Source: Paramesorhizobium salinisoli (GTDB lineage: Bacteria; Pseudomonadota; Alphaproteobacteria; Rhizobiales; Rhizobiaceae). Taken from it: a DNA stretch of 64,000 nucleotides. Location of the stretch: positions 434,001-498,000 of the forward strand of contig NZ_QOZG01000001.1 in NCBI RefSeq assembly GCF_003335045.1, in the 5' to 3' direction. Positions 12,094-28,591 of the stretch are shown here, piece after piece (positions within the stretch are counted from its first letter, which is position 1; every line of letters begins with the position of its first letter). Below the pieces are notes generated by a model. That model did no database searches and had not been told where the DNA came from. It saw nothing but the letters and a program-made list of their open reading frames with translations. Both the position numbers and the translations under genes were made by a program.

Positions 12094-12114
12094 CCTGATC
12101 CCAGGTTCAGCCTG

Positions 12115-12139: not shown

Positions 12140-12155
12140 GCTATCTGCCCTATAT

Positions 12156-12521
12156 TCACGCTGTGCCGATGCTGGCGAATTGCGCCGTCAGGTAGGGTCT
12201 GTCGAAAGGCTTCAGCATATAGCTGAAAGCGCCCGCGCGCTTGGCCCGCATGATCTTCGGCAAATCCACCTCATTGAGGCAGAGCACGATCCTGGCCCGC
12301 TTGCCGCCGGGCATTTCCCTTATCGCACTGATGATTTCGAGCGTCGGCAGATCGGGAAGGTCGCTATCGAGGAGGATGACATCCGGCATCTCGGCCATGC
12401 ATTCCTCGATAGCCTGTGAACCATTCGCGGCATCGGCGACGACCATGACGCCATCCGACAGAATCCGCTTGGCAACTTTTCTGATCACAGATGAATCGTC
12501 AACAATGAGACAGCGCGCCAT
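12156..12521 (-). CDS. Single-domain response regulator next to chpT
   Basis: 121 residues, a stand-alone CheY-like receiver with no output domain. The acidic pair is at residues 8-9 (VDDSSVIRKVA), the phosphoacceptor is Asp52 (VILLDSDLP), and the conserved Lys is at 104 (YMLKPFDRP). It lies downstream of chpT on the same strand with a gap of 93 bases, so it may be co-transcribed. Its sequence is unlike CpdR or DivK as I know them. Its role is open: it could be an alternative ChpT target or a chemotaxis-type protein. It converges on ctrA. Confidence 0.85.
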   Translation of the reverse strand: MARCLIVDDSSVIRKVAKRILSDGVMVVADAANGSQAIEECMAEMPDVILLDSDLPDLPTLEIISAIREMPGGKRARIVLCLNEVDLPKIMRAKRAGAFSYMLKPFDRPYLTAQFASIGTA

Positions 12522-12614
12522 AAGACCTCCCCTGGTGCTCCGTTGAGGAGCCTTTGGGAGGCAATCTAGCCGCCAGCCATGAAAAAACGACCAAGCGATA
12601 CGGTAAAGTTTTAG

Positions 12615-13265
12615 CTATTCCTGGCTTGCGGCTGGTGAGGCTGCGGAAAAGACGATTTCCTCCGCCGTGGCGTGAATGGATATGGTCATTCCCGCTTCCT
12701 GAGCCAGGAGCAGTGTATAATAAGGCTGGACGGAATGGGCATCGACCGGCTCTTCCGGCATTTTCCCGCTGTGCAGCTCCAGGAATTTCGGCGGCACGCG
12801 CAGCATCGGCCCCTTGGCGGTCACGACGAAGCGCGGTTCGGTCTCCGCATTCTCCAGAACCACCGAAAGCGAGCCGCCGCGCGGAATGGCGCCATTGCCG
12901 ATGAGGATCAGGTTGAGCAGCAGCTTGACCTTGTTCTTCGGCAGGAGGACGCGATTGCCGCTCCAGGTGAATTCGGCCTTCTCGCCCTTCATATATTCGT
13001 TCGCGACGTTCTGCGCGTCGCCCGTGTCGATCTGCACCCCGGCCGAACCGGCGGCGCCGAAAGCGATGCGCGCGAACTGAAGCCTTGCCGAAGCGGTACG
13101 CGCGCTCGACTTGATCAGGTTCATCGCGTCTTCGTCTGCCCCGCCTTCTTCCAGAAGCTCGAGGCCGTTATTGATCGCGCCGACCGGCGAGATGATGTCG
13201 TGGCAGATGCGGCTGCACAAAAGAGCGCCGAGATCGACGGCGGAAAGAACGACGGGCAAGGGCAT
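12615..13265 (-). CDS. chpT: Histidine phosphotransferase ChpT
   Basis: 216 residues. From the ATG at 13265 the protein begins MPLPVVLSAVDLGALLCSRI and puts the phospho-accepting histidine at position 22 (CHDIISPVGAINNG), as in Brucella ChpT. GGAG stands eight bases upstream of this ATG. Longer in-frame starts at 13271 and 13286 are less well placed. The protein has a DHp-like helical hairpin followed by a degenerate ATPase-like domain lacking ATP-binding motifs. It passes phosphate from CckA to CtrA and CpdR. Placement between ctrA and eipA is typical of the Brucella group. Confidence 0.95.
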   Translation of the reverse strand: MPLPVVLSAVDLGALLCSRICHDIISPVGAINNGLELLEEGGADEDAMNLIKSSARTASARLQFARIAFGAAGSAGVQIDTGDAQNVANEYMKGEKAEFTWSGNRVLLPKNKVKLLLNLILIGNGAIPRGGSLSVVLENAETEPRFVVTAKGPMLRVPPKFLELHSGKMPEEPVDAHSVQPYYTLLLAQEAGMTISIHATAEEIVFSAASPAASQE

Positions 13266-13600
13266 GGACATATCTCCGGACAGCATGATTGCCTTCAGGC
13301 AATCGGACGGGTCTGAATTCTGGTTTCCAGGCCGAATCGCCCGGCTTTATCGCCTCTCTGGATACACAGGGCTTTTGCCGACGGCAAGGAAGCGCGGTCC
13401 GCCATGGGAAAATTTGACGGCGGCAGATCAACCGTCATGTGCCGAGTCATCGAAATGCCAAGATCCAAACATAATGATTTGGAAAACAATTAGCTCTTTA
13501 ATAACGATGATTCGGGCAAAGCGGACGTGAGATCCGCATGCACGTTCTCTTCAGGGTTCCGGCGTCAGACAGAGAAGCGAGCAGCCAGAAGGAAAATTGA
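13266..13600. promoter_or_regulatory. Divergent promoter region of chpT and eipA
   Basis: A 335-base spacer. It carries two GANTC sites (13444-13448 and 13509-13513) and a weak CtrA-like arrangement TTAG-N7-ATAAC at 13490-13505, about 100 bases before eipA. Brucella eipA is reported to be activated by CtrA, so this is the place to look for the site, but the match here is imperfect. No ORF is supported. Confidence 0.45.
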
Positions 13601-14200
13601 ATGGCCTCTCTATTTCTGTCCCAATCCCAATCGTGGACCCGTCTGCGGTTTGCAGCGACGTTCGTAGCCTTGTTCGTGGCGGCGTTCCTGCTCGTCCCGC
13701 ATCAGGCCCGCGCCAACGAAACCTACACGATGGAGGAGATCGTCGAATCCGGCCATCGCTTCTTCGGCTCGACCTCCGGCGGCATTGCGTCGGTGATCGA
13801 AAAGGTCTTCCAGAGCTACGGGCTGCCCAACGGCTATATATTGGGCGAAGAAGGCTCCGGCGCGTTTATCGGCGGCCTGACCTATGGCGAGGGCACGCTC
13901 TATACCAAGAACGCGGGCGACCATAAGACGTTCTGGCAGGGCCCGTCACTTGGCTGGGATTTCGGCGGCCAGGGCTCCCGCGTCATGATGCTCGTCTATA
14001 ATCTCGACGATATCCAGAGCATGTATGGGCGCTATGCCGGCATATCCGGCTCGGCTTACGTCATTGCCGGAGCCGGATTCAACGTGCTCAAACGCGAGAA
14101 CATCCTGCTCGTTCCGGTGCGCACCGGCGTTGGCGCTCGCCTGGGCGTCAATATCGGCTACCTCAAGCTGACACCGGCACCGACCTGGAATCCGTTTTGA
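13601..14200 (+). CDS. eipA: Periplasmic envelope integrity protein EipA (DUF1134)
   Basis: 199 residues. A Sec signal peptide with a hydrophobic core around residues 18-33 (FAATFVALFVAAFLLV) ends at QARA near residue 38. The mature part is one DUF1134 domain: ETYTMEEIVESGHRFFGSTS, a glycine-rich YILGEEGSGAFIGGLTYGEG segment, and WDFGGQGSRVMML. In Brucella abortus EipA is an eight-stranded beta-barrel in the periplasm, needed for envelope stress resistance and under CtrA control. Length and neighbourhood match. A 12-bp hairpin follows the stop. Confidence 0.93.
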   Translation: MASLFLSQSQSWTRLRFAATFVALFVAAFLLVPHQARANETYTMEEIVESGHRFFGSTSGGIASVIEKVFQSYGLPNGYILGEEGSGAFIGGLTYGEGTLYTKNAGDHKTFWQGPSLGWDFGGQGSRVMMLVYNLDDIQSMYGRYAGISGSAYVIAGAGFNVLKRENILLVPVRTGVGARLGVNIGYLKLTPAPTWNPF

Positions 14201-14206
14201 CGTGAT

Positions 14207-14241
14207 GCACAAGCCTGCTGGATTACGGCGCAGGCTTGTGC
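14207..14241 (+). terminator. Hairpin downstream of eipA
   Basis: A perfect 12-bp stem (GCACAAGCCTGC with GCAGGCTTGTGC) and 11-base loop lie six bases after the eipA stop. There is no U-tract, so termination efficiency is uncertain. Confidence 0.5.
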
Positions 14242-14350
14242 CATTCTACGCATGGAACCTTGATCGGGTGGATCGAGGATAGATCATGCAGCATTTCAGC
14301 GTTATCGGGCGCCTTTTACGCATCCTGTCGGATGCAGGGCGTGGCGAGGC

Positions 14351-15373
14351 GTGCAACAGGTCCTGGTCCCGCAAGTGATCGAGTCTGCCCTTTTCTTCAT
14401 CCTCGGCTTTCTCAGCGCCGTATTTCTCGCCGCGCTGGTCGCGCCATCCATATGGCGGCGCGCCACCATATTGACGCGGCGGCGCGTCGAGACCGAAGTC
14501 CCACTGACGCTCAATGAGATCCAGGCAGACAAGGACAGCTTGCGTGCGCACTATGCGATGGCAGTCCGCAAGCTCGAAATGCGGCTGGCCGAACTCAACG
14601 AGAAACATGCCGAACAAAAGATCGAACTTGGCGCCAATTACGAAAAACTCAAGCGACTCTCAACGCTGGAACACGAGTTGGAGGCGTTGCGTCAGCGCCA
14701 GGCCCAACGCGAGAGCGAGCTTGCATCGACCGCCAACGCGCTTGCTACTGCCGAACAGAGCCTTGGGCAGCACAAGGGCGAACTGGAGATGCTGCAGCTT
14801 CGCCACAGCGAGCTTTCAAGCCTCGCGGATACGCTCCGCATCGAGATTGCCGTGCGCGAAACCGAATTGGGGCGGCTGATGGGAGAACTGGACGACATGC
14901 GGCACGAACGCAAGAAGACCGATGCAACGCAACGCGAATTGTCGACCGAGGCCAAAACGGCCCAGTCAGCGCTCGCAAGCGAGCGCAAGCGCAATGCCGC
15001 ACTGGAAAAGAAGCTGGAACGCCTGCTGACGGATCTCACCGACTTCAGGGAGAAACTTGAGCGGCGCGAAACCGAACTGGCGCGGCTGCGCAGCGGCGAA
15101 GCTGCCCCCGCCGCACAGGACAAGGCAAAGACCAAAGCCAAACAGGTTCAGTCCAGTGAAGCCAAGCCAGAGCAGGCTACGGCGGACGCCGCGTTGCGCG
15201 AGCAGATGCAGGAGCTCACCGCTGAAGTCGTCGCCATGACGGCAGAGCGCGAAGGCCCGCAATCGCCCATTCACAAGGCACTGGAACAGGCGGAAGCGAA
15301 GAAAGGCAGCGCAACGGATAACGCCCAGGAAAGCCTCGCCGATCGCATCCGCAACCTGAAAAAGCCGGAATAG
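14351..15373 (+). CDS. Membrane-anchored coiled-coil protein of unknown function
   Basis: 340 residues from a GTG start at 14351. I found no better start in this frame. Residues 8-33 (QVIESALFFILGFLSAVFLA) form one membrane helix, followed by a basic stretch (IWRRATILTRRR) that should be cytoplasmic. About 200 residues of heptad-rich coiled coil come next (LEHELEALRQRQAQRESELA, then KKLERLLTDLTDFREKLERR). The tail is disordered and ends SLADRIRNLKKPE. The layout resembles single-pass scaffold proteins. I do not recognise the family. It follows eipA with the same orientation. Confidence 0.8.
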   Translation: MQQVLVPQVIESALFFILGFLSAVFLAALVAPSIWRRATILTRRRVETEVPLTLNEIQADKDSLRAHYAMAVRKLEMRLAELNEKHAEQKIELGANYEKLKRLSTLEHELEALRQRQAQRESELASTANALATAEQSLGQHKGELEMLQLRHSELSSLADTLRIEIAVRETELGRLMGELDDMRHERKKTDATQRELSTEAKTAQSALASERKRNAALEKKLERLLTDLTDFREKLERRETELARLRSGEAAPAAQDKAKTKAKQVQSSEAKPEQATADAALREQMQELTAEVVAMTAEREGPQSPIHKALEQAEAKKGSATDNAQESLADRIRNLKKPE

Positions 15374-15666
15374 CGGAATTCGACGTTCCGGAATGGATCA
15401 TCGGATCAAGCCGATGATGACGAAGGGCTAATGATGACGCTCCGGGGGCACGGGCGGGTGGCCATCACTGCGACCAGCACCGCCGCCAATCCCTCCCCGC
15501 GAAGCGGAAAGGGCGGGGACGAAAAATCGCCCGACGGGCGGTCTAGCGGCCGCAGTCAAATACCTGGAGATGACCGCCCGTCTCCCCATCCCAGGTTTAT
15601 GGGGCGCTCTTTCTCAATGGCCAGACGCGGAAAGCGGGCGTGGTAGCCTCCCGCTGCCAGCCAAAA
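15374..15666. other. GC-rich intergenic region
   Basis: 293 bases between two convergent genes. It contains several short inverted GC-rich stretches (around 15490-15515 and 15525-15545) and no credible coding frame. It may be a remnant of an intergenic palindromic repeat of the sort seen at 28.6 kb, but I cannot align it reliably by eye. Confidence 0.35.
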
Positions 15667-16791
15667 CTATCCCTTCTTTCCGTGGAATTCTCGGATGGCC
15701 GCGATCACGGTGTCCTGGTCGGCCTCGCTCAGATAGGGATGCATCGGCAGGCTCAGGATGCGGGTGGGCAGCGCTTCAGACACCGGCAGGCCTCCGGGCG
15801 CTACTGGATAATGCTTGTAGGCCTGCTGCAGATGCAACGGCTTGACGTAATAGATGACCGAGGGAATGCCGGCAGCCTGAAGATGAGCCTTCAAGCCGTC
15901 GCGGTTTTCGCTCTCGATCGAATATTGAGCCCAGGCCGAGCGATATCCTGCCGGCAGGTGCGGCACCTTCACCACATCCTTCAGCCCCTCGGCATAGCGT
16001 TTTGCCACCACCTGCCGCGCTTCCATCTCATCCTCGAGAATGGCAAGCTTCTCGATCAGGATCGCTGCCTGGATTGTGTCGAGGCGGGAATTGAGGCCGA
16101 TGCGCACATTGTCATATTGCGTCTCGCCCTTGCCGTGAAACAGCACCGAGCGCAGCGTCTCAGCCAGTTCGCCGTCATTGGTGAACATCGCGCCGCCATC
16201 GCCATAGCAGCCGAGTGGCTTGGCCGGATAAAAGCTCGTCGAGGCGACATGGCCGAACGCGCCGCACATCACATTGTCGCGCTTGCCGCCAATCGACTGC
16301 GCCGCGTCCTCGATGACAAAAAGCCCCTCGCGCTCGGCCAGCGCCATCATCGCGTTGTATTCGGCGGCAAGGCCGAAAAGGTCGACCGGGATGATCGCCT
16401 TCGGCTGCAGGCGTCCTTCCCTGCGGATTTCGGCAATGGCCGCCTCAAGCTGCGCGACATCCATGTTGTAGCTGACAGGGTCGACATCGACAAAAACCGG
16501 CTCCGCGCCGGCAAGTGCCACCACCTCGGCCGTGGCCGCGAAGGTGAAGCTCGGGCAGAAGACCGCGTCGCCTGGCCCAATGCCGCGCGCCATCAGCGGC
16601 ATCAGCAACGCATCCGTCCCATTGGCGCAGGCGATCACATGCTCGATGCCGACGTAATCGGCGAGCCTCTTCTCGAACTCCGCCACTTCAGGCCCAAGAA
16701 TGTAGCGCCCGTCAGCCACCACCTTGGCGATAGCCGCGTTCAGCCGGTCTCCGATGCGCTCGCGTTGCGCCGCCAGATCGATGAATTGCAT
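15667..16791 (-). CDS. DegT/DnrJ/EryC1/StrS-family sugar aminotransferase
   Basis: A PLP-dependent enzyme of 374 residues. The start is the ATG at 16791 (MQFIDLAAQRERIGDRLNAA), with GGAG six to nine bases upstream. Family motifs are ANGTDALLMPL, FVDVDPVSYNMDVAQLEAA, the VIEDAAQSIGG segment, and the PLP-lysine region TSFYPAKPLGCYGDGG. These enzymes aminate keto nucleotide sugars, as WbpE/WlbC do with UDP-3-keto sugars. The oxidoreductase gene upstream on the same strand (gap about 200 bases) is the natural partner. The product sugar is inference. Confidence 0.9.
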   Translation of the reverse strand: MQFIDLAAQRERIGDRLNAAIAKVVADGRYILGPEVAEFEKRLADYVGIEHVIACANGTDALLMPLMARGIGPGDAVFCPSFTFAATAEVVALAGAEPVFVDVDPVSYNMDVAQLEAAIAEIRREGRLQPKAIIPVDLFGLAAEYNAMMALAEREGLFVIEDAAQSIGGKRDNVMCGAFGHVASTSFYPAKPLGCYGDGGAMFTNDGELAETLRSVLFHGKGETQYDNVRIGLNSRLDTIQAAILIEKLAILEDEMEARQVVAKRYAEGLKDVVKVPHLPAGYRSAWAQYSIESENRDGLKAHLQAAGIPSVIYYVKPLHLQQAYKHYPVAPGGLPVSEALPTRILSLPMHPYLSEADQDTVIAAIREFHGKKG

Positions 16792-16993
16792 GTCTGCTCC
16801 AATGACGATTGATCCGCGGCCGATACCTTGCGCGAATCCGGTTGGGACTGTGTAACGCTTCGTTCCGGCAGCTTCCATCGCGCCGCCGTTCAAAGTTTGA
16901 TCGGCTATGTAACAACGCTTGAGGCTGTTGTCACCGGTTGCTGATCACATCCCCATGTCAGAGATTTTGGCAGATTGCCAGTCGTTAGCCCTG

Positions 16994-17950
16994 TCACTGG
17001 CCATGATTGACGGTGCCGGCGGTCAGGATGCGCAGTACGTTGATCGCTTCCTCGCCGTCGGTACGCGGCTTTGCCCGCGTTTCGATGCAATCGATGAAAT
17101 GCTGGCATTCGCGGGTGAGCGGCATGCCCTCTCCCACCCGGATATAGGTCGGCTCCTCGGCGGTGAACGCCCATTGCCCGTTGTCCTGCCAGACCGCATG
17201 GCGATAGACGGCGAGCTTGCGCTCCCATGGCTCGACATCGTCGAACACGGCCATCGCCTTGGTGCCCACCACCGTCAGACGGCGCTCGCGATAGGGATTA
17301 AGCCGAGAGGCGAAGAGATGACCGCGCAGATTGCCGGGGAATTTCAGATGCAGATGGGCGAAATCGCTCAAATGATCGAGAAGTGCTGCCCCCTCGCCGC
17401 GCACCTCGACGGGTTCGCAGCCGGTCAGCGCCAGAATCATCGAGAGATCATGCGGAGCGAGATCCCACAGCGCATCGTTTTCGGTGTGGAACTTGCCGAG
17501 GCCGAGGCGGTGCGAATGGATATAGCGCACTTCTCCCAGTTCACCCGCCTGCACCAGTTCGAGAAGCTTTTCAAAAGCCGGATGAAACCGCAGCACATGG
17601 CCGACCATGAAGACGCGGCCATTGTCGCGCGCAGCCTTCACCTCTGCCTCGGCATCTGCAACCGTCAGCGCGATCGGCTTTTCGACGAGCACGTCCTTGC
17701 CATTGGTCACCGCGCGGGTCGCATATTCCGCATGGAACTGCGGCGGCAGCGCCAGCACGATGGCGTCCACATCGTCACGGGTGAAGAGATCCTCCACCTC
17801 GATATGCAGCACGCCCTGCTCCGCGGCAAAGCCCGCAGCACGGTCGCTGTTCTGGTCGGAGACGGCGTAAAGCGCGCCGAGACTCTTCAATGTACGAATA
17901 TGGTTGCTGCCCCAATAGCCGCAACCCAATACTGCAATGCGCGGTGCCAT
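16994..17950 (-). CDS. Gfo/Idh/MocA-family oxidoreductase
   Basis: 318 residues from the ATG at 17950, with GGA seven bases upstream. A TTG three codons earlier is less likely. An N-terminal Rossmann fold is visible (IAVLGCGYWGSNHIRTL), and the family's EKPIAL motif carries the catalytic lysine (VLVEKPIALTVADAE). The sequence resembles WlbA/WbpB-type enzymes that oxidise C3 of UDP-GlcNAc uronate. With the following aminotransferase this would give a 3-amino sugar for a surface polysaccharide. No acetyltransferase of the WlbB type lies next to it. The role is inferred from the pair. Confidence 0.87.
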   Translation of the reverse strand: MAPRIAVLGCGYWGSNHIRTLKSLGALYAVSDQNSDRAAGFAAEQGVLHIEVEDLFTRDDVDAIVLALPPQFHAEYATRAVTNGKDVLVEKPIALTVADAEAEVKAARDNGRVFMVGHVLRFHPAFEKLLELVQAGELGEVRYIHSHRLGLGKFHTENDALWDLAPHDLSMILALTGCEPVEVRGEGAALLDHLSDFAHLHLKFPGNLRGHLFASRLNPYRERRLTVVGTKAMAVFDDVEPWERKLAVYRHAVWQDNGQWAFTAEEPTYIRVGEGMPLTRECQHFIDCIETRAKPRTDGEEAINVLRILTAGTVNHGQ

Positions 17951-18126
17951 TAATTCCAAGCCTTTGCGTTCGCCACTCCCTTATCGACGCAAAAGCGGGA
18001 AGACAAGTCTTGGTCGCGATGAAGAACGCTTGACACGGCATTGTTACCCACCTTATACCCGCGCCGTTCCCGCTGAAAAACAGCGCGAAGCTCCGAGGAT
18101 CGGGGCAACACCGATACGGCATCGGG

Positions 18127-18203
18127 GGCGGAGTAGCTCAGTAGGTTAGAGCAGAGGAATCATAATCCTTGTGTCGGGGGTTCGAATCCCTCCTCCGCTA
18201 CCA
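18127..18203 (+). tRNA. tRNA with CAT anticodon, probably elongator tRNA-Met
   Basis: 77 bases including encoded CCA. The acceptor stem is GGCGGAG with CTCCGCT (G-U at the first pair) and discriminator A. The D-arm is GCTC/GAGC. The anticodon stem GAGGA/TCCTT encloses the loop ATCATAA, giving anticodon CAT. The T-arm GGGGG/CCCTC carries TTCGAAT. It lacks initiator hallmarks (three G-C pairs at the anticodon stem base and an unpaired first base). tRNA-Ile2 with lysidine at C34 is the alternative and cannot be excluded by eye. Confidence 0.95.
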
Positions 18204-18210
18204 TCGCTTT

Positions 18211-19455
18211 TCAGAATGTAGCGCGACGCTCGTTTCTTACAGTTTGACGCTGGTTCTTAGACAGCCGCAATTTTTGCCGCCGGCGTTGCCAGAATGGTTG
18301 ATCAGACCAGCGGGGCTGGATGCCATAGTAGAAATCTCGTTGCGACAAATATGTTTGCCAGAGTTGGCGCTGTTGCTCGACGTATTGGTGGATGTAAATA
18401 TTGCCGCTGCCCAATCCCGCCGCAGTCTGCGGGCCATCCGTCAACGCGTAATGTATCATATGTCCGGCATGGCTGGCCGTCCTGAGCGCTTTGTCGATGC
18501 CTTGCGATGACAGCGGATCATAGGCTTGTGCCGCGTCGCCCACCGCGATCCAGGCGTCACCGCCGAAGTCTCGCAGTCGCTGGCTGTTCGCAGGTGCGCC
18601 CCGGATCGTCCCGCAGGGGCGATAGCCCCTGGCTTTGAGCAATGGTGCTATATGCGTCGCGCCGGCCAGCAGCTGATCGAAGCCTTGCCGTGACGCAGCC
18701 AGCCTCGCTGCCGGCAAGTCCCTGTCGGAGTGAAAAACCACCAACCGCCCGGTTTCGCCGCCATCACGGCCTGGCAAGCGGTTGCTGTACCACCAGCCGT
18801 CTGGAGCGGCCTCGATCCTTGTATAGCGGTCATCATCCTCGCCGGTGCAGGAAAACCATTGCGCATAGGCGAACAACTGATCGTCATCAGGGACGATCGG
18901 GACACCGAGCATCCGGGCTACAACCGCCTGCCGACCAGAACAATCGACGAGATAACGGGCACGATCCTGCCGGATGCCTGCATCCGAGGCGAATGTGAGC
19001 TGCCAATTGTAGGAGCCGTCAGCGATACGCGCGCAAGAGCGCAAACTGGTGCCCTTGAGCAAGGTTGCGCCAGCGCGAACCGCATTCGCGCGCAGGGCTT
19101 CATCGAAAGCCAATCGGTCGATGCACACGCCGTGGCCGGACGACGTAAAGAAAAAATCCGCGATATCGGCCTGCTCGCTCGCCCATAGCGAGACATTGCC
19201 GGCCGTGCTGAAAAGGCCGGGAAGTTGTTGTTCCGGAGATTCAGGGTCTCCAAGGAAGTGTTTGACCAGACCAATCGATGCCGGCGGCAGGGACTCGCCG
19301 AGCTTGAAACTGGAGGATTCCCGTCTCTCCACCAACAGCACACGCTGGCCGTACCTAGCCAGCGTGATGGCGGTTGCGGATCCCGCGGGCCCGGAGCCGA
19401 CAATGACGACGTCCCAGGTTGTGCCGGTCCGCTCGGGCTGCGACATCGGCGGCAC
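18211..19455 (-). CDS. LodB-like FAD-dependent maturation flavoprotein
   Basis: 414 residues. The N-terminal dinucleotide-binding motif is GSGPAGSATAITLARYG near residues 20-36. The second FAD contact is WIAVGDAAQAYDPLSSQG, which is the arrangement of the tryptophan-halogenase/geranylgeranyl-reductase-like flavoproteins. It begins one base past the stop of the LodA-like gene on the same strand, as lodB follows lodA in Marinomonas. There LodB is needed to build the cysteine tryptophylquinone cofactor, not for catalysis. Family and synteny together make the LodB role likely. The basic C-terminal tail (RRRQKLRLSKNQRQ) is unusual, and its stop lies seven bases from the tRNA end. Confidence 0.87.
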   Translation of the reverse strand: MPPMSQPERTGTTWDVVIVGSGPAGSATAITLARYGQRVLLVERRESSSFKLGESLPPASIGLVKHFLGDPESPEQQLPGLFSTAGNVSLWASEQADIADFFFTSSGHGVCIDRLAFDEALRANAVRAGATLLKGTSLRSCARIADGSYNWQLTFASDAGIRQDRARYLVDCSGRQAVVARMLGVPIVPDDDQLFAYAQWFSCTGEDDDRYTRIEAAPDGWWYSNRLPGRDGGETGRLVVFHSDRDLPAARLAASRQGFDQLLAGATHIAPLLKARGYRPCGTIRGAPANSQRLRDFGGDAWIAVGDAAQAYDPLSSQGIDKALRTASHAGHMIHYALTDGPQTAAGLGSGNIYIHQYVEQQRQLWQTYLSQRDFYYGIQPRWSDQPFWQRRRQKLRLSKNQRQTVRNERRATF

Positions 19456-19458
19456 GAA

Positions 19459-21459
19459 TTATGTTTTTTTGGCCGGCGGCATATTCAGCGCCGGATCACG
19501 CTCTTGCTCGACGAAGACGGTCTGACCATTGTCCTTCAGATAGCTGCCGTCCTCATTCTTGATCGGCAGCACCATCCCCAGCTTTGACCAGGCATAGGCC
19601 ATCTGGTTGTAACCGTCAGTGGCCGACAGCGGTTCGCCCTGTTCATCATATCCGCGGAACCATTCCTTGTAGGTTCGGGTCTGGTTCGTCTTGTCGTATG
19701 CAAAAACGATATCCGGCCGCTGAACTGGCCACCACGCCTGGTTGCAAGACCAGAAATCGCCCTGCCAAGGGCACGACATATAGGCAGCAAGCGAACCGGG
19801 CTCGATACCCTGATTGACGCGGAACGCCTCGGCGAAATTTTCCCGATAGATAATGAGATACGGGAATTCGATGCCGGGATGAAAACCGCCGCCGATCGTG
19901 GGCTCGAGCGCCGAACTGTCCAGCGCGTGCGGCTGCTCGGCGAGCGGCAACGACTCAAGAGGCACCGGCTTTGGCGGAACGCCGACATCAAAATTCCCGT
20001 CAGCCCACTCTTTCATGTGATTGAGTTGTAATTCGGTAAGGCTCAGGAACTGGTTCGGGAAGCTATTGCCCAACTGCTTGTTCTGCAACGGCTTGCCCGC
20101 GGTGCCCCAAAGCTTGGGCATCTTGTAGTCTTCCTCGTCTCGCTTGAATTCATCGTTCTTCCAGCTGGTCGGGCGCTCCGGTGGCGGCGGCATCAGTGAA
20201 TCGACCAGCCGCCCGTTCTTTCCGGCCGCTTGCCGCATCAGGCTATAGACCATCTGCCTTGTCGGCTGGCTGTTCTCGCTTGGATCGATGAAAGCGGCCA
20301 TATAATCGCTGTTGAGCAAGTTTCCCGGCTGCTTCGGACCATGAGCGGCATCCTTGGAGTCTCCCGTAACGCCCGCAGCCTCGGCGCTCACCCACCCATA
20401 GTTAACCGCCTTGGCGAAGATCGGATAGACATCGCGGTAGAAGTTCGTCTTCTGCTTGGCGTAAGGATATGCTTCAGGGAAAGCCTCGTACACACGATCC
20501 AAAAGCGACACCACGTGGTACATGTGAGGTGCAAATTTCGGTGGCGCGGTGGCGATCCACGCCCCTGCGTGCGGGTTTCTCGTACCTTCATCGGTCGCCG
20601 ACTTCACATTGTCGCGCGTGCTCAGGATAGTGCCATCCTTGAGCGTGACCGTGACATCGATTTCACCACCACACGTGTCGTCCCACCATCCCGGAATGTT
20701 GAAATATGCAAACTGGTTCGTCAGCGGATTTTTGCCGTCTTCCGGGCCGTTCGGAGGGTTGACCGTCATACTCGGGTTCGACAATTCCACCTTGGGTGTC
20801 GTGACGCATTCGCTTTTCCCGGGCGCCGGAACGAACAGCAGGCGGTCCTTGGAATCGAGGCGAAGCTGCCCCAGTTCGATATCGGTGGCTGCTTTGTAAG
20901 TCACCTCGACGTCTTTCGAGGGATCCTGCGGTGTGAAACCCTCGAACCGCAATTGCCCGGGCAACGTGCCTTTTTCGATGCCCGTGAAAATATCGCCTTT
21001 CATGACGACCGGACCGGCTTCTCCAGAGGCGATCGTATGCACACCGGGATCGATGATGAGCTTGTCACGTTCGATCGGCTTCATACCCGGCTGGATGGAC
21101 GGGTTGCGCAACATGTCCGGGTCAAACAGATATGCCCCTTGAAAGGCATAATTCGCCGATTTCATGTTCCGGACATGAACCCGCCAGCGAATGGATTGTA
21201 CGAGGTCTGACTCGGAGGTGAGTTCCGCGACGACGTTGCCGTCGGCATCATAGGCATAGACCCGATATCGCTGCGCCTGGCGTTTCAGCCGCGCACTGCT
21301 GTCACGGTAGGTTCCGCCGTTTGGTCCGGGGCCATTGCTGCCGCCGGGATCGACCACGATTCCCGGCGCTTCGGGACCAATGTAAAACTCGTCACTGTCC
21401 CCCAGGCGAGCAATGCCTATACCGGGATGGATGCGAATGCTGTTGATCTTATCGGCCAC
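19459..21459 (-). CDS. LodA/GoxA-like cysteine-tryptophylquinone amino-acid oxidase
   Basis: 666 residues from a GTG start at 21459, with GGAGG seven bases upstream. It begins with the family opening IRIHPGIGIARLGDSDEFYI. Near the C-terminus stands CPWQGDFWSCNQAWWPVQRP: Cys572 has an aspartate four residues before it (Asp568), the spacing of Asp512/Cys516 in LodA. A candidate partner is Trp624 (YAWSKLGMV). LodA oxidises the epsilon-amino group of lysine and GoxA oxidises glycine, releasing hydrogen peroxide. The substrate here is unknown. No signal peptide is visible, though the preceding gene encodes a Tat-signal protein. Residue equivalences are my alignment by eye. Confidence 0.88.
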   Translation of the reverse strand: MADKINSIRIHPGIGIARLGDSDEFYIGPEAPGIVVDPGGSNGPGPNGGTYRDSSARLKRQAQRYRVYAYDADGNVVAELTSESDLVQSIRWRVHVRNMKSANYAFQGAYLFDPDMLRNPSIQPGMKPIERDKLIIDPGVHTIASGEAGPVVMKGDIFTGIEKGTLPGQLRFEGFTPQDPSKDVEVTYKAATDIELGQLRLDSKDRLLFVPAPGKSECVTTPKVELSNPSMTVNPPNGPEDGKNPLTNQFAYFNIPGWWDDTCGGEIDVTVTLKDGTILSTRDNVKSATDEGTRNPHAGAWIATAPPKFAPHMYHVVSLLDRVYEAFPEAYPYAKQKTNFYRDVYPIFAKAVNYGWVSAEAAGVTGDSKDAAHGPKQPGNLLNSDYMAAFIDPSENSQPTRQMVYSLMRQAAGKNGRLVDSLMPPPPERPTSWKNDEFKRDEEDYKMPKLWGTAGKPLQNKQLGNSFPNQFLSLTELQLNHMKEWADGNFDVGVPPKPVPLESLPLAEQPHALDSSALEPTIGGGFHPGIEFPYLIIYRENFAEAFRVNQGIEPGSLAAYMSCPWQGDFWSCNQAWWPVQRPDIVFAYDKTNQTRTYKEWFRGYDEQGEPLSATDGYNQMAYAWSKLGMVLPIKNEDGSYLKDNGQTVFVEQERDPALNMPPAKKT

Positions 21460-21527
21460 CGCTCAACCTCCAAAAATTGCTGTTTTTAATCCGACTCTGA
21501 AAGAGCATTTCAGACAGCCCGGGTTGC

Positions 21528-21818
21528 TCAGAGAGACGACCGGACGATCTTCCAGTCCACCAGGTCTGCAGAGGCGACCGCGTACCGGTTTCCACAATGT
21601 TCGATGTCGGCGTAAGTGAGGCCGCCTGATTGGGCATGGGCCTGCATGGAGAAGCCCCCGCCGAAGCTCGCCTTGATCGATTTCTCGATGTGCGAGGCAG
21701 TGGAGGCTGGTGCGCTGTGCGTTTTAGCCTCCCCTTTTCCGGTGCTGCCGATACCGCCCAGCAGGAGAACGGAGGACGCTGCGCATCCCTTTATGAAGTC
21801 TCTACGCTCGATGTTCAT
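21528..21818 (-). CDS. Small Tat-signal protein leading the LodA/LodB-like operon
   Basis: 96 residues. The ATG at 21818 has GGGAG about nine bases upstream. The N-terminus MNIERRDFIKGCAASSVLLL is a textbook twin-arginine signal (RRDFIKG, then a moderate hydrophobic core). The mature part of about 65 residues is small, glycine-rich in the middle (SFGGGFSMQAHAQSGGL) and has one cysteine (IEHCGNRYAVAS). I do not recognise a family. It lies 68 bases upstream of the LodA-like gene on the same strand. A possible role is as a Tat carrier or accessory subunit for the quinoprotein. That is inference. Confidence 0.75.
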   Translation of the reverse strand: MNIERRDFIKGCAASSVLLLGGIGSTGKGEAKTHSAPASTASHIEKSIKASFGGGFSMQAHAQSGGLTYADIEHCGNRYAVASADLVDWKIVRSSL

Positions 21819-22373
21819 ATTCCGTACTCCCTGGCATTATCGCCCTGACACCAATCATCGCGTCATCTCGACGTTATTTCGTTGAAAAGTATTACGGATG
21901 AGGATTTAATATGGAATGAATATTGATTTATAAATTACTTTAAAAATAGGAGACTACTTCATCTTTTTAATAATATTTATCACTGTGCTATATTAAGTAA
22001 ATATATTTATTTATATAATATTCAAGCTGCTGAAAGATACACATAAAAGAATGGGAAGAAGCCGTCAGCCTCTTCCCACCGACATGATCAATCTCTCCAG
22101 GACCTTGTCGCCGCCCCTGCGCTACAAAAAGCCTACAATGCAGCCCTCCGCACATTCCTAGTCGCGATAAAGGAAAATATTCCTAGAATACGGCGTATCT
22201 TTTTTGTATTTACGGCGCGTCGTCTGGTGCGTTGAACACGCGCGGGAGCCGATCTGCTCCGGGGCGATCGGCGCGTGAAAACGCCTGGAACGACCCTTCG
22301 CTTCGCATCCCCATTCTGGTGCAGTTTATCAACCCGAGAATAAAGCGGCTCGCTTCTAAAATCTCCCCTTGTT
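21819..22373. other. AT-rich intergenic region upstream of the Tat/LodA operon
   Basis: This stretch is markedly more AT-rich than its surroundings, especially 21890-22030. It has a perfect 8-bp hairpin (TGGGAAGA with TCTTCCCA, 11-base loop) at 22052-22078 without a U-run. No credible ORF. It must contain the promoter of the minus-strand operon. The base composition supports acquisition of this segment by transfer. Confidence 0.5.
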
Positions 22374-22395
22374 TATGCAACAACCATGTTGCATA
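22374..22395 (+). promoter_or_regulatory. Palindromic operator before the ArsR-glyoxalase operon
   Basis: Perfect 9-bp inverted repeat (arms TATGCAACA and TGTTGCATA, four-base spacer ACCA) ending 10 bases before the ATG of the ArsR-type gene. The position and symmetry fit an autoregulatory operator. Confidence 0.7.
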
Positions 22396-22405
22396 ACATC
22401 CTGAG

Positions 22406-22705
22406 ATGTCTGACGAAGAGGGTACAAACCGCATTTACCGGGCGATCGCCGATACGACTCGCCGACGAATCATCGATGAGTTGGCGCTGCGCGATCGCCA
22501 GTCCTTGTTCGAGATTTGTGCGCGAATGATATCCAAGCACGGTATCTATCTCAGCCGCCAGGCGTTCTCGCGGCACCTGTCCGTGCTGGAGGACGTCGGC
22601 ATCATCGAGGTGGAGTGGCAGGGTACGACCAAACTCCACTCCCTGAATAAAGCGCCGTTGGCCGGATTGGCGAACGGCTGGCTCTCCAGATTCGAGGAAC
22701 AGTGA
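22406..22705 (+). CDS. ArsR-family winged-helix regulator
   Basis: 99 residues. The domain opens with YRAIADTTRRRIIDELALRD, has the recognition helix LSRQAFSRHLSVLEDVGIIE, and a wing ending QGTTKLHSLNKAPL. This is the subtype that often precedes glyoxalase or SRPBCC genes. The stop is immediately followed by the start of the VOC gene, so the two are co-transcribed. A perfect palindrome directly upstream is the likely self-recognised operator. The inducing ligand is unknown. Confidence 0.87.
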   Translation: MSDEEGTNRIYRAIADTTRRRIIDELALRDRQSLFEICARMISKHGIYLSRQAFSRHLSVLEDVGIIEVEWQGTTKLHSLNKAPLAGLANGWLSRFEEQ

Positions 22706-23101
22706 ATGAAAATCTATGTGACCAGTGTCTTCGTCGATGACCAAGCCAAGGCCCTCGATTTTTACACGCGAGTGCTTGGCTTCGAGGTCAAGCATGACGT
22801 GCCCGTCGGAAAGCACCGCTGGCTCACGGTTGTCGATAGGAACAATCCTAGTGGCACGGAACTGCTTCTCGAGCCGAGTGAACACCCCGCCGCCAAACCT
22901 TTCAAGGATGCGCTGGTGCGTGACGGTATCCCCTTCACGTCCTTCCAGGTCGATGATCTGGACGCAGAATATGGCAGGCTTCGCGGCCTTGGAGTGGAGT
23001 TCACGCAGGCGCCCATGGATGCAGGCACCGTCAAGATGGCTGTATTCGATGACACCTGTGGAAATTTAATTCAGCTGGTCGAGATGATCGAACCGGTGTG
23101 A
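22706..23101 (+). CDS. VOC-superfamily (glyoxalase/bleomycin-resistance-type) protein
   Basis: 131 residues, a single pair of beta-alpha-beta-beta-beta modules: VTSVFVDDQAKALDFYTRVL in the first half, and TSFQVDDLDAEYGRLRGLGV with DTCGNLIQLVE in the second. The glutamate in the last motif and the glutamate in ELLLEPSEH are possible metal ligands. The wording resembles VOC extradiol/glyoxalase-like proteins. It is adjacent to and in phase with the ArsR gene, so probably a detoxification or small-molecule resistance pair. The substrate is not known. Confidence 0.85.
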   Translation: MKIYVTSVFVDDQAKALDFYTRVLGFEVKHDVPVGKHRWLTVVDRNNPSGTELLLEPSEHPAAKPFKDALVRDGIPFTSFQVDDLDAEYGRLRGLGVEFTQAPMDAGTVKMAVFDDTCGNLIQLVEMIEPV

Positions 23102-23534
23102 GCACTGCCCGACGAGAGATCACGGATTCCGGTTTTGCTCCAACCACAGCATTTTCCCGCCTCCTCCACAGTGGTCTTTGCGGCAGGCTGGCGGTAGTTC
23201 CCGTTTACCTGCCGACAGGGCAAGTCTTTTCCGTGAACACCTGAAGCGTTGAAGACGTACGGGCCAGGCGCAGTGGGCGTGTTACTCTATCGATGATTCC
23301 GCCAGCTTGATGGTCACCTCAGTTTCCCAATTGGCAGGGTCGGGTTTGGACACTGGATGGCAGACCGCGTCGCCCACGAGCTTGAAAGACTTTCCCTCCG
23401 AGGATGCGGGACCTATAATCCAAACGCCATAATACTTAGTCACATCAACGCGCTTGCCTTTGATTGTACTTTACGTCAACTTCCAACTTCTGCCTTTTTC
23501 ATAAAAGGCACCAACTTAAACTTTGGAGGATAGA
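23102..23534. other. Intergenic region with a possible small minus-strand frame
   Basis: 433 bases. From 23443 (GTG) to the stop at 23282 the minus strand reads a coding-looking 53-residue frame (MTKYYGVWIIGPASSEGKSF at its start, WETEVTIKLAESSIE at its end), with no ATG and an upstream in-frame TAA about 27 bases before the GTG. It could be a small gene or the end of a lost one. The rest shows no gene. The last 60 bases hold the promoter and GGAGG of the DUF3606 gene. Confidence 0.35.
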
Positions 23535-23717
23535 ATGGCAGACGATAAGAACAAGACCAAGCAAGACAGGTTGCGCATTGCGGCCAACCAGCCTTATGAG
23601 GTTGGCTATTTCCGCAAAAAGCACGGATTATCCCAGGATGCGGCTCGTAAGATCATCCAGGAAACGCGTGGCGATCGCGAAAAGGCCAACGAAATGGCCC
23701 GGAACCTGAGGAAGTAG
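23535..23717 (+). CDS. DUF3606 small protein
   Basis: 60 residues. The ATG at 23535 has GGAGG five to nine bases upstream. After a charged start (MADDKNKTKQDRLRIAANQP) the sequence YEVGYFRKKHGLSQDAARKI matches the DUF3606 family, a helical module common in rhizobia whose function is unknown. The protein is soluble and basic. It stands alone, facing the YadH-like gene. Confidence 0.8.
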   Translation: MADDKNKTKQDRLRIAANQPYEVGYFRKKHGLSQDAARKIIQETRGDREKANEMARNLRK

Positions 23718-23796
23718 CCCGCGCCTCAAAGCCACTGACGCCACGGATCTATACTGCTACCGCGACCGGCCTGTTCGCCCTTGCGTTTGGCAAAGA

Positions 23797-24558
23797 TCAG
23801 TTGCGCAGCCGATAGCCGGTCCTGAATATCCACGCGACAATTGCTATGCAGATGAGCAGGAAGACGACGGTCATTCCGAGACTGATCGCGACCGGAACGT
23901 CGGATGTTCCGTAAAAGCTCCAGCGGAAGCCGCTGACGAGATAGACAACCGGGTTGAACAGCGTCACGGTCCGCCAGATATCGGGCAGCATGTTGATTGA
24001 ATAGAAGCTGCCGCCGAGGAAGGTCAATGGCGTGACGATCAGCAGCGGCACCAGTTGCAGCTGCTCGAAGCTTTTCGCCCAGATGCCGATGATGAAGCCG
24101 AACAGGCTGAAGGTCACCGCTGTCAGCACCAGGAAAGCGAGCATCCATACCGGATGCTCGATCCTGAGCGGCACGAACAGCGCTGCAGTCGCCAGGATGA
24201 TCAGGCCAAGCACGATCGACTTGGTCGCAGCAGCCCCGACATAGGCGAGGACAATTTCGAGATAGGATACCGGCGCCGACAGCAATTCATAAATCGAGCC
24301 GACGAATTTGGGAAAATAGATAGCGAAGGAGGCATTGGAGATCGACTGCGTCAAAAGCGTCAACATGATCAGCCCCGGCACGATAAAGGCGCCGTAGCTG
24401 ATGCCGTCAATCTCGGTAATGCGTGAGCCGATGGCCGAGCCGAAGACGACGAAATAGAGCGATGTTGAAATGACCGGCGAAACGATGCTCTGCAGCATCG
24501 TGCGGAAGGCGCGCGCCATTTCCATCCGGTAGATGGCCCAGACTGCGTGGAAATTCAT
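23797..24558 (-). CDS. yadH: ABC-2 type transporter permease, YadH-like
   Basis: An inner-membrane protein of 253 residues with about six hydrophobic helices. It starts [20 protein letters not shown]. Family wording includes [20 protein letters not shown] and the conserved STSLYF and [12 protein letters not shown] segments of the YadH/NodJ-type permeases. The ATG overlaps the ATPase stop by four bases (ATGA). With the upstream ATPase it forms a half-size exporter. The exported compound is unknown. Homologues have been linked with drug, polysaccharide or lipid export. Confidence 0.87.
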
Positions 24559-25481
24559 GCCTGTTTCCTCACCAGATTGACGAAGATCTCCTCAAGCGAG
24601 CTGTTTTCCGTGTCCATGTCGCGGAAGTGGATGCCGGCCGCCTCCAGTTCACGGATCAGCGAAGCGACGCCGGGCCGTTCGCTTTGGTTGTCATATGTGT
24701 AGGTGAGTTGCCCGCCATCGGGGGAAAGCTCCAACGCATAATGCGAAAACGCATCCGGAATAGCGTCCAGCGGGCTGCGCAACTCCAGTATGAGCCGCTT
24801 GCGGCCCAGCTTGCGCATCAGTTCCGCCTTGTCCTCGACCAGCACGATCTCGCCGCGGTTGATCACGCCGACGCGGTCGGCCATAGCCTCGGCTTCTTCG
24901 ATGTAATGCGTGGTCAGGATGATGGTGACGCCGTCCTCGCGGAGCCGGCGCACCATCGCCCACATGTCCTGGCGCAGTTCGACATCGACACCCGCCGTCG
25001 GTTCGTCAAGAAACAGGATGCGTGGCTCGTGCGACAGCGCCTTCGCGATCATCAGCCGGCGCTTCATGCCGCCGGACAGCGTGATCGCCTTGGCGTCCTT
25101 CTTGTCCCATAGCGACAGGTCGCGCAGCACTTTTTCGACAAACGCCTTGTCCGCCGGCTTTCCGAACAGGCCGCGACTGTAGTTGACCGTCGCCCACACG
25201 CTTTCGAAGGCGTCGATGGTCAGTTCCTGCGGCACCAGCCCGATCAGGCTGCGCGCGGCACGGTAGTCGCGATTGATGTCATGGCCGTCGACGGTGACGG
25301 TGCCCGACGAGCGGTTGACGATACCGCAGACGATCGAAATCAGCGTCGTCTTGCCCGCGCCGTTCGGCCCAAGCAGCGCAAAGATCTCGCCGCGTCTTAT
25401 GTCGAGATTGATCTCCTTCAACGCCGTGAAGCCCGTAGCGTAGGTCTTGGTGACCCCGGAAATCGAGATGATCGGTTGCAT
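24555..25481 (-). CDS. yadG: ABC transporter ATP-binding protein, YadG-like
   Basis: 308 residues. Walker A is [10 protein letters not shown], the signature [15 protein letters not shown] and Walker [17 protein letters not shown], matching the YadG type closely (including RRLMIA and the [12 protein letters not shown] region before it). The C-terminal extension after residue 230 ends with the [13 protein letters not shown] motif of this subfamily. It is translationally coupled with the YadH-like permease downstream. Confidence 0.9.
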
Positions 25482-25858
25482 GGCTGAAACGGCTACTTGA
25501 AGGAGGGTTGTCTAATTAGCCCACTGAATGTGGGTGCGCGAACTCGGAAGTCAATGCTACTTCGGACAGTTCCGGACATGGAATTCGCCAGAACGTATCC
25601 CGATGTAGGCAACCCCTGCCCCGCCGTCCAGCCGAAATTCAACCAGAACACGTTTCCGGCACATCCCATTCTCTCCATATCTCGGAAGGCACGCGTGTAT
25701 CCGGCCGTTCTGCACGATTGTGTCGTTCCGGCAACGGAAGGGCCGGTTCTCTGTTCCAGCCCCTTATTCGCCGTCGTTTAAGGACACTATTAACCTTCAT
25801 TTTTTAATGATTTCAGCAAGCCCATCAAGGCGATTTCACATATGCGGGTTGCGGTGTC
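25482..25858. other. Divergent intergenic region between the YadG-like ATPase and ftsK
   Basis: 377 bases holding the two outward promoters. The part nearest ftsK is AT-rich, with TTAACC at about 25791 in front of a run of Ts. I see no ORF or strong palindrome. An ORF at 25497-25781 has no family resemblance and no convincing ribosome-binding site. Confidence 0.4.
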
Positions 25859-28591
25859 ATGCGTATCCAGAGAACGAATTTTCCAACAATGTCAGATAAT
25901 TGCAACGAAGCTCCCGAGGATTTTGATCCAATGCCAATGCACGGGCCAATACACGGGACTCCAGTTCCAGCCGAATCCCCCGTCACGTCCCAGCCCTTCA
26001 ATGCACCTCGTAACCCCGCGGTCATTCCCGCAGCCGTTCCTGCTGCAGCGCATCGGCCTTTGAACCCTGTCCGGCCTCAGCCGCCGGTCGCGCAAAAGCC
26101 AGTTCCATCCGCCGCAAGGACCGCGAGGTCCATCCATACGACCCCTCATGCACAGATGACGGCCTCGAGCACCCAGCCAACGCAGACCAGCGAATCCGGT
26201 TATCCCCCGGTATGGAAGCATGCGTTTTCGCTGGCCGAGAATGTGCGTTTCACGCGCACGCCGGAATGCGAACTGACGAAATCCAAGGATCAGGCGGAGG
26301 AAGCGAGCGTTTCCGGTCAAACCGATCTAGGACCAAAGGACCTCGTGCGGCCCAGGAAAGCGTTCCATACGACAGCGCTTCCAGAAGTCCCGGCAGCTTC
26401 AGCTGCCGGGACGGCCTCCGTTTCCCGGCCAGTCGCGCCCGCCTTCAAGCCTGCCCCGATCACCGGTCAGATGGCGTCAAATCTTCCCCTCAGGCAGACT
26501 ATTGTTACGACCCAATCGCAAGGGACATCATCGTCAAAGGGCACGCAAGCTCGGCCAGGAAGGGACGAGGCTTTCGCCCATCTGTCTGATTTCGCTTTTT
26601 GGGAATCCATGGAACTTATGGGCGAGTTGCCTCCAGCGCCAGCCGTGGCGGCCCCCGCCCGGCCCAGGCCGCAGACGGCGCCGACGTCGATCACCACCAT
26701 GTTCCGCGTCGTGGAGTGGAAGCCCAGTGCGCCGGAAGCCGAAGCGCCGATACCTCCGGCACTGCATGCCGCCGTTGAGATCACTCCCGAACCACCGGTC
26801 GCTCCGGCGCAACCCCTGGCCCGCAAGCCGCTCATACATGTCCAGGAGGAGGTAGCGGTCCAGAGCTCCGACGATCATCGGCCCCATGCAGTCGTCACAC
26901 CGCATGAGGTGGATAACGACGCTCCGCAGGCGACTGTACGCGTTGCTCCCGTCACCATGATGCGGCCCGTGGAGCGAAAGGAACAGCCTTTCGCCTCCGC
27001 CCGCATGGAGCTTCGCCTCATGGGCGCCGCGGGGCAGCACGGCTATGAGATGCCGCCGGTTTCGCTGCTGCAGGAGCCGGCCCCGCAGACGGGGGAAGTC
27101 ATCACGCAGGAGATGCTCGAGCGCAAGGCCGGGCTTCTCGAGAACGTGCTGGAGGATTTCGGCGTCAAGGGCGAGATCATCCATGTGCGCCCGGGTCCCG
27201 TCGTGACGCTTTACGAGTTCGAGCCCGCACCGGGCATAAAATCCTCCCGCGTCATCGGCCTTGCCGATGATATCGCCCGCTCGATGTCGGCATTGTCGGC
27301 CCGCGTTGCGGTGGTTCCCGGCCGCAACGTCATCGGCATCGAACTGCCCAACGCCACCCGCGAGACCGTCTATTTCCGCGAAATGATCACCTCGCCGGAT
27401 TTCCAGCGCACAAGCTTCAAGCTCGCGCTCTGCCTCGGCAAGACCATCGGCGGCGAACCCGTCGTGGCGGAACTGGCGAAGATGCCACATCTGCTCGTCG
27501 CCGGCACCACCGGCTCGGGCAAGTCGGTGGCCATCAACACCATGATCCTGTCGCTGCTCTACAGGCTCACGCCCGAAGAATGCCGCCTGATCATGGTCGA
27601 TCCGAAGATGCTGGAACTGTCGATCTATGACGGCATCCCGCATCTCCTGACGCCCGTCGTCACTGACCCGAAGAAAGCCGTCATGGCGCTCAAATGGGCG
27701 GTGCGCGAGATGGAGGATCGCTATCGCAAGATGTCGGCGGTCGGCGTGCGCAACATCGACGGCTTCAACAGCCGCATGACTGCTGCCAAGCAGAAGGGCG
27801 AAACGGTGCTGCGCACCATCCAGACCGGCTTCGATAAGAACACCGGCGAAGCCCTCTACGAGCAGGAGGAGATGGACCTCGCGCCGATGCCCTATATCGT
27901 CATCATCGTCGACGAGATGGCCGATCTGATGATGGTCGCCGGCAAGGAGATCGAAGGCGCGATCCAGCGGCTGGCCCAGATGGCCCGCGCCGCCGGCATC
28001 CACCTGATCATGGCGACGCAGCGCCCCTCCGTTGATGTCATCACCGGCACGATCAAGGCGAACTTCCCGACGCGCATCTCCTTCCAGGTCACGTCGAAGA
28101 TCGACAGCCGCACCATTCTCGGTGAACAGGGCGCCGAGCAATTGCTCGGCCAGGGCGACATGCTGCACATGGTCGGCGGCGGACGCATCTCGCGCGTGCA
28201 CGGCCCCTTCGTTTCCGACGAGGAAGTGGAAAAGGTCGTCACACATCTGAAGGCCCAGGGCCGGCCCGATTACCTCAACACGGTCACCGCGGACGAGGAC
28301 GAAGAGGTCGAGCCGGAGGACACCGCAGTCTTCGACAAGAGCGCGATGGCGGCCGAGGATGGCGACGACGATCTCTACGCGCAGGCAGTCAAGGTGATCC
28401 TGCGCGACAAGAAATGCTCCACCTCCTACATCCAGCGCCGCCTCGGCATCGGCTACAACCGCGCCGCCTCGCTGGTCGAGCGGATGGAGAAGGAAGGCCT
28501 CGTAGGTCCGGCAAACCATGTCGGCAAGCGCGAGATCCTCTCGCAGAACCGCGACAGGAGCGTCTCGCGCAGCGAGGACGACGATATCTAG
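25859..28591 (+). CDS. ftsK: FtsK/SpoIIIE-family DNA translocase lacking an N-terminal membrane domain
   Basis: 910 residues. The first 360 or so are low-complexity, proline/alanine-rich and carry no membrane helix, unlike standard FtsK with four. The motor follows: the alpha domain around residue 420 ([20 protein letters not shown]), Walker [13 protein letters not shown] near residue 548, Walker [15 protein letters not shown] near 680, and [20 protein letters not shown]. The gamma winged helix ([20 protein letters not shown]), which reads KOPS/SRS sequences, closes it. It pumps DNA at division. The start has a weak ribosome-binding site, and ATG 25889 is an alternative. Rhizobia often carry a second, membrane-bound FtsK. 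Confidence 0.93.

Follow-up and report, generated by a model that had tools for sequence, protein, structure and literature searches.

How does a quinoprotein oxidase that has no signal peptide of its own leave the cytoplasm? The question is raised by three genes in a stretch of Paramesorhizobium salinisoli DNA (the window, meaning the whole 64,000 nucleotides analysed), which encode a miniprotein with a twin-arginine translocation (Tat) signal, an oxidase resembling LodA and a flavoprotein resembling LodB. To our knowledge, the exit route of LodA-type oxidases without a signal peptide is not settled. We consider it probable that the miniprotein, as a protein of its own, escorts a quinoprotein oxidase with no signal and a cysteine tryptophylquinone (CTQ) cofactor through Tat, a proposal that predicts binding, export as a pair, cytoplasmic assembly of the cofactor, cutting of the signal and the type of substrate. 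The strict pairing of the two genes in one oxidase branch, in every complete case examined, suggests that the small protein may carry the finished enzyme out of the cell interior.

Read from 21818 to 18211, the genes follow one another as small gene, lodA-like gene and lodB-like gene, with gaps of 68 and 3 base pairs (bp):

21528..21818, minus strand: Tat-signal miniprotein gene (the small gene), 96 amino acids (aa), starting MNIERRDFIKG
19459..21459, minus strand: LodA-like quinoprotein oxidase gene, 666 aa, GTG start
18211..19455, minus strand: LodB/GoxB-like maturase gene, dependent on flavin adenine dinucleotide (FAD), 414 aa

The open reading frames (ORFs) and both gaps agree with the three-gene layout given in the initial annotation, and co-transcription of the trio is inferred from this spacing.

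The small gene accompanies the oxidase gene

All 23 operons examined, from two orders of Alphaproteobacteria and from the Pusillimonas family, keep the same order (small gene, lodA, lodB, all on one strand). The initial annotation held that the carrier or subunit idea would fail if the small protein never accompanied lodA elsewhere, and on this count the idea stands. The gap between lodA and lodB is 3 bp in 18 operons, 4 bp in two and 0 in one, while in two operons the ORFs were called too long; the gap between small gene and lodA is 12–154 bp in the 22 of 23 rows where it could be measured, all but that of genome G396. When 33 LodA-like proteins were placed on a maximum-likelihood tree, the six miniprotein-linked oxidases among them fell on one branch with a support of 100/100 (17 further Pusillimonas-family oxidases were left out). 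The stem of this clade measures 1.99 changes per column and separates it from all other rows, the GoxA-like ones included; where the clade belongs among the other LodA-like branches is weakly supported.

Within the genus, the oxidase is present in four of six genomes and the small gene in exactly those four; the small gene was absent from the 55 further relatives searched beside the genus, and in its own genome the oxidase, used as query, matched one gene, that of the window. G396, which belongs to another order, carries both genes. Its small protein shows 24–34% identity, depending on the alignment. With the G396 row left out, a profile of core parts still picked this protein out from the ORFs of all the loci, at E=1.7e-9. 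Clade members and a decayed Nitrobacter remnant aside, the next ORF in that search, at E=0.054, is one that runs antisense to a lodA gene.

Run over 131 genomes from the family to which Pusillimonas sp. T2 belongs, a small-protein profile gave 18 places in 17 genomes, and at all 18 (L008 included) lodA and then lodB lie downstream on the same strand. As the small protein itself had led to these operons, a fair test has to start from the oxidase instead; this reverse search matched in 24 of the same 131 genomes. All 18 full-length clade oxidases (17 genomes, 72–86% identity) have the small gene adjacent, and the 6 of the 24 genomes with only distant LodA-like genes (32–48% over parts) gave no small-gene match. 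One further oxidase, that of G1348, has 78% identity from residue 435 onwards; the contig begins within it, its upstream side is unseen, and it was left uncounted. A small-gene homologue occurs at none of 41 other LodA-like loci (best core-domain E=1.5), seven of which, from the reverse search, include only about 1.5 kb of flank. Full-length profile matches in G197 and G743 (E 0.005 and 0.007) and a signal-only match in G1266 (E=6e-4, residues 2–38) were dismissed as chance, with no core match better than E=0.079.

The pair is rare outside the genus, G396 and the Pusillimonas-family relatives in the genomes sampled; the phylum, class and order sets are samples and not exhaustive. A phylum sample of 398 genomes held the clade oxidase in two (the own genome included) plus one distant oxidase. 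Among the 385 genomes of a class sample, the small gene was found in the own genome only, two weak matches having been dropped, and some LodA-like gene in 13, again including the own. The clade was met in G396 only among 244 genomes of its order, with one distant oxidase elsewhere, and 250 genomes of the order of G254 held distant oxidases only, in 10.

Two side observations deserve mention. One genome (G1262) holds two full copies of the trio, L108 and L113, each with its own small gene, and at L117 the lodB-like gene (2234–3453) is split into two ORFs, apparently by a break in the gene or a sequencing error.

The three genes travel together

When neighbouring ORFs were clustered over the 23 loci, no family besides the trio appeared in more than two, with an ORF filter so crude that it kept lodA in 20 of 23 and the small gene in 17 of 23. 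At the DNA level, likeness to the operons of three congeners is confined to 18274..~21845, and the flanks differ. Since no family but the trio goes beyond two loci and, within the genus, only its DNA is alike, the three genes travel together, and such company while moving is best read as one functional unit. Could the small gene nevertheless be a mere passenger, a Tat substrate that came to lie in this operon without any relation to the oxidase? Co-transcription alone, itself inferred, is no proof of interaction, yet the arrangement recurs in all 23 operons, whose hosts are distant from one another and where no other gene family exceeds two of the 23 loci, and the core of the small protein is under purifying selection; we regard a passenger as very improbable.

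The operon sits in a variable stretch, 18204–25757, beside a tRNA gene:

18127..18203, plus strand: tRNA-Met (CAT), called by ARAGORN, at the edge of the variable region that holds the operon

Synteny with all five congeners ends at the 3' end of this tRNA. In three of them it resumes near 25757, shortly ahead of the 910-aa ORF at 25859; one of the three also has a 197-bp piece of 23522–23717. The last ~21 codons of the lodB-like gene (18211–18274) fall outside the DNA held in common with the congeners' operons, and the C-terminus of the LodB-like protein (414 aa, against 391–409 in relatives with a clean ORF) may stem from the insertion site. Upstream of the operon, an A+T-rich patch (21600–22199) has a G+C content (GC) of 46%, against 53–65% in the other 600-base steps of 12000–27599, and no promoter better than chance was found upstream of the small gene.

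A LodA-like oxidase without a signal peptide

The 666-aa protein scores 142.5 bits with Pfam LodA_N (cut-off 26.3) and 101.6 bits with LodA_C (cut-off 25), so that its assignment to the LodA-like enzymes, made earlier from the letters alone, holds. The adjacent lodB-like flavoprotein gene that marks the LodA/GoxA family lies 3 bp downstream. By domains, cofactor residues and this neighbour the oxidase is a LodA/GoxA-family enzyme, with its CTQ and its activity predicted. It reaches neither the GoxA glycine oxidase equivalog NF038173 (205.2 of 750 bits) nor the LodA lysine 6-oxidase equivalog NF038172 (120.4 of 600 bits). The predicted maturase, likewise, resembles LodB, GoxB and QhpG and stays below each equivalog cut-off, with 206.9 bits for NF038171 (LodB) and 196.5 bits for NF038174 (cut-off 400 for both) and 166 bits for NF049967 (QhpG).

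The oxidase has no visible signal peptide, as had been noted at the outset: its first conserved motif, IRIHPG, already begins at residue 8, and the GTG start is found at the equal place in 20 of the 23 operons, the window's included. Nor was a signal peptide seen in the LodB-like protein, which begins directly at its FAD-binding motif.

The predicted cofactor residues are encoded at the following positions:

19744..19746, minus strand: codon TGC of Cys572, predicted CTQ cysteine, aligning with LodA Cys516
19729..19731, minus strand: codon TGG of Trp577, predicted CTQ tryptophan, aligning with LodA Trp581

The two residues were identified from alignments of the oxidase to LodA (chain 3weu) and GoxA (6eer). 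Query residues 549–601 align with 3weu without a gap up to Cys572, which falls on Cys516, and in the next aligned block Trp576-Trp577 fall on LodA Trp580-Trp581; the CTQ pair of LodA is described as Cys516 and Trp581 in the portion of the 2015 survey available (PMC4417212). An alignment of 33 LodA-like rows (six clade proteins and 27 from outside the clade) is invariant at Asp568, Cys572 and Trp577. The initial annotation had named Cys572 and Trp624 as cofactor residues, with Asp568 four residues before the cysteine. Cys572 and Asp568 stand, as they align with LodA and GoxA and never vary. Trp624, which is constant within the clade (23/23) so that only the wider family can decide on it, is Trp in just 19 of the 33 rows (13 of the 27 outside the clade) and otherwise Phe, Ile, Leu or Met; it is ruled out in favour of Trp577 (33/33), which is consequently the residue to mutate.

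Cysteine and tryptophan are only five residues apart in the window's oxidase, compared with 65 between Cys516 and Trp581 of LodA. All six clade rows, and L076 besides, have this spacing of 5, and the other 26 rows have one of 15–37. L076 (3953–7363, on a Paraburkholderia caribensis plasmid) encodes a 1136-aa LodA-like protein with no miniprotein beside it and is preceded by an S53 peptidase gene. Another plasmid, of Planctomyces sp. SH-PL62, encodes a 166-aa protein (L078, 3935–4435) that matches only the C-terminal cofactor part (query 512–655); its gene is directly followed by one annotated as tryptophan 7-halogenase.

A Tat signal joined to a constrained core

The miniprotein comprises a twin-arginine n-region (RRDFIK), a hydrophobic region up to about residue 24, a variable linker and a conserved core (residues 44–90). 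The classic RRDFIKG signal proposed for the first gene is confirmed by TIGR01409 (20.4 bits, cut-off 16.7), with Pfam TAT_signal below its cut-off (12.4 of 22.7 bits). None of the 23 small proteins departs from Arg5, Arg6 and Phe8, and a hydrophobic stretch comes next. An AxA motif lies past this stretch in 21 of 23, and in five of these, the window's included, only at residues 37–40.

Agreement with the majority residue over the 23 rows is 79% in the core and 48% in residues 13–42. In each of the six pairs compared, the core shows a lower rate of nonsynonymous substitution (dN) than of synonymous substitution (dS). Conservation together with dN < dS means that the passenger part matters, and not the signal alone. 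AlphaFold2, run on the 23-row alignment, placed 52 residues at a predicted local distance difference test score (pLDDT) of at least 90, with low confidence for the signal part, and predicted a helix (38–52) and four strands (57–64, 67–74, 77–83 and 90–95). Taken with the conservation, this model makes the passenger part a real small domain under constraint, beyond the signal.

No family beyond the Tat signal was found for the small protein in Pfam or NCBIfam. Against solved structures the single sequence had no match, and the best profile match, the NapA signal peptide (E=0.08), was unconvincing. Searches for relatives of the small protein in phages and for relatives of the oxidase among viral contigs found none. 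A scan of genome contigs with short patterns of a single small protein gave two loci, and a plasmid search with the small protein gave one decayed copy. This relative of the small gene (L006, 7980–8260) lies on the Nitrobacter hamburgensis plasmid NC_007959.1 among transposase genes, with no lodA in 16 kb.

The make-up of the core bears on a second explanation, in which the small protein would be a maturation helper (a caddie or chaperone) that presents the apo-oxidase to LodB, much as MelC1 does for the copper loading of tyrosinase, and in which export would be a by-product. MelC1 bears a Tat signal. A tyrosinase and its helper gene are already known as a two-gene operon (PMC2758597, PMC6312201), and CTQ formation in LodA is said to begin with a step that appears to depend on copper (PMC7876137), to go by the parts of these papers available. 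However, no MelC1 family is among the seven Pfam families that the 23 members hit up to E=1, none of which is supported beyond the Tat signal. The core has no conserved Cys, one nearly invariant His (His61, 22/23) and His74 (20/23), hence no evident metal site, and other clades retain the CTQ residues without the small gene. A helper of this kind appears unlikely to us.

A proposed Tat escort and the evidence for and against it

In the reading that we favour, the signal-less LodA-like enzyme would fold in the cytoplasm, where the LodB-like FAD enzyme would help to convert Trp577 to a quinone cross-linked to Cys572. The miniprotein core, with its predicted helix and four strands, would bind the folded oxidase, and its twin-arginine signal would take the pair through the Tat translocase, to be cut after passage. 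Outside the cytoplasm, the oxidase would act on a primary amine or an amino acid and release hydrogen peroxide. LodB and GoxB are flavoproteins needed for CTQ formation, as stated in the sections available of one source (PMC7876137). Because the LodB-like protein shows no signal peptide, the cofactor would be built in the cytoplasm on the folded oxidase, and any export would then be that of a folded protein, that is, by Tat. The host is taken to have a Tat translocase. Segments 169–185, 220–235, 281–296, 363–370 and 416–425 of the window's oxidase are gapped in at least 85% of the 27 outside rows, which makes them candidate docking loops for the miniprotein. Besides the strict linkage and the constrained core, the escort is favoured by GoxA (PMC3948610) and four GoxA-like rows of the 27 from outside the clade, all of which bear a Tat signal on the enzyme itself, and by the Tat hitch-hikers known among other enzymes.

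Several observations weigh against an escort. The other 23 of the 27 outside rows have no Tat motif by a simple pattern applied to the first 60 residues. With most LodA-like proteins thus lacking the motif (23/27) or a partner (0/41), the enzyme might not need export; as signal absence is common in the LodA family, a missing signal alone is weak evidence. The AxA motifs are a weak sign of signal cutting, since five of the 21 sit in the alanine-rich linker at residues 37–40, and the small gene and lodA are not tightly coupled, as their 12–154 bp spacing shows. A pattern scan of the 64-kb window alone found no TatABC genes. The decayed Nitrobacter small gene exists without lodA, although it looks like a remnant among transposases. 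Once the outlier L068 is removed, distances in the core of the small protein correlate only moderately with those of LodA (r 0.58), against r 0.78 for its signal part and r 0.82 for LodB: the core follows LodA divergence less than the other two, where a partner-binding core might be expected to follow it best. This argument is tempered, as linked genes co-diverge in any case.

Some of these points fit another explanation, that the small protein is exported alone as a periplasmic partner (an anchor through its uncut signal, an inhibitor or another helper), with the oxidase remaining cytoplasmic or taking another route. The 23 of 27 outside rows without a Tat motif agree with it, as do the weaker tracking of LodA divergence by the core and the compact fold predicted for the core, which could act alone. 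A lone periplasmic partner, however, would have no contact with an oxidase left in the cytoplasm, which sits badly with the strict linkage in the clade (18/18, with 0/41 elsewhere), and the AxA motifs in 21 of 23 speak weakly against an uncut anchor. We assign a low probability to this explanation.

Compared with the escort as such, a more elaborate role is rather unlikely: as a quinoprotein caddie, the miniprotein would bind the LodB-matured oxidase and plug its active site, so that no peroxide arises in the cytoplasm, travel with it through Tat and be shed outside. If true, enzymes with a self-derived cofactor would have in the caddie a one-way safety device whose evolution was separate from that of MelC1. 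For the Tat escort in general, a dedicated and separable partner in one clade would offer a simple genetic handle on oxidase location and quinone formation, and possibly a natural carrier domain of small size with which folded enzymes could be exported by Tat.

Comparison with known systems

We found no description of a Tat miniprotein beside lodA in the open-licence literature searched; the supplements of the 2015 survey may list a clade member unnamed. This survey divides LodA proteins into groups I–V and reports that most group II enzymes bear a Tat motif; in the portion available, neither Phyllobacterium nor Pusillimonas is named in its main text (PMC4417212). The closest arrangement is the GoxA/GoxB operon of group II, which like the window combines a CTQ oxidase, a flavoprotein maturase and a Tat signal. 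GoxA carries this signal as its own N-terminus, according to the part of the source available (PMC3948610), whereas it lies on a separate protein in the window. The LodA/LodB lysine 6-oxidase operon of group I has the Pfam domains, the cofactor-site Cys, Asp and Trp and the adjacent lodB in common with the window; the text covered mentions no Tat miniprotein there, whereas the window has one.

Escorts of this kind are known for other enzymes. In Streptomyces MelC1/tyrosinase, as in the complexes PaoABC and HybOC, a signal-bearing partner serves a signal-less redox enzyme; for PaoABC and HybOC, hitch-hiking through Tat by subunits without a signal is documented in the portion of the source available (PMC4273604). 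The enzyme in the window is a different one, no sequence relation was found, and the interaction is the one proposed above.

A small extra gene in a lod operon has been described before. Group ID operons contain one for 138–142 aa, of unexplained function, in the portion of the survey available (PMC4417212); like the window's gene it is an addition to the operon, and it differs in position, lying between lodA and lodB. At L054 (1687–2118) and L066 (1699–2133) we found, in this position, proteins with a length of 143 and 144 aa that start with NPF-G-W-YRSLLN and probably represent this group ID gene. They have no twin-arginine start and no profile match, which rules out that the miniprotein is the group ID small gene.

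Finally, the close cofactor pair recalls QhpC, the gamma subunit of quinohemoprotein amine dehydrogenase (QHNDH), in which Cys37, Trp42-Trp43 and Asp33 are reported in the part of the source available (PMC7876137). As in the window's oxidase, the CTQ pair is close, an Asp stands at position -4 and the tryptophan is one of a Trp-Trp pair. The QHNDH gamma-subunit family PF08992 stays below its cut-off in the oxidase (15.5 of 25 bits), and the match to PDB 1jmx is not significant (E=0.095). The exit routes would differ as well: QhpC is exported by the ABC transporter QhpF in the same partial account (PMC7876137), whereas for the window's oxidase a Tat escort is proposed.

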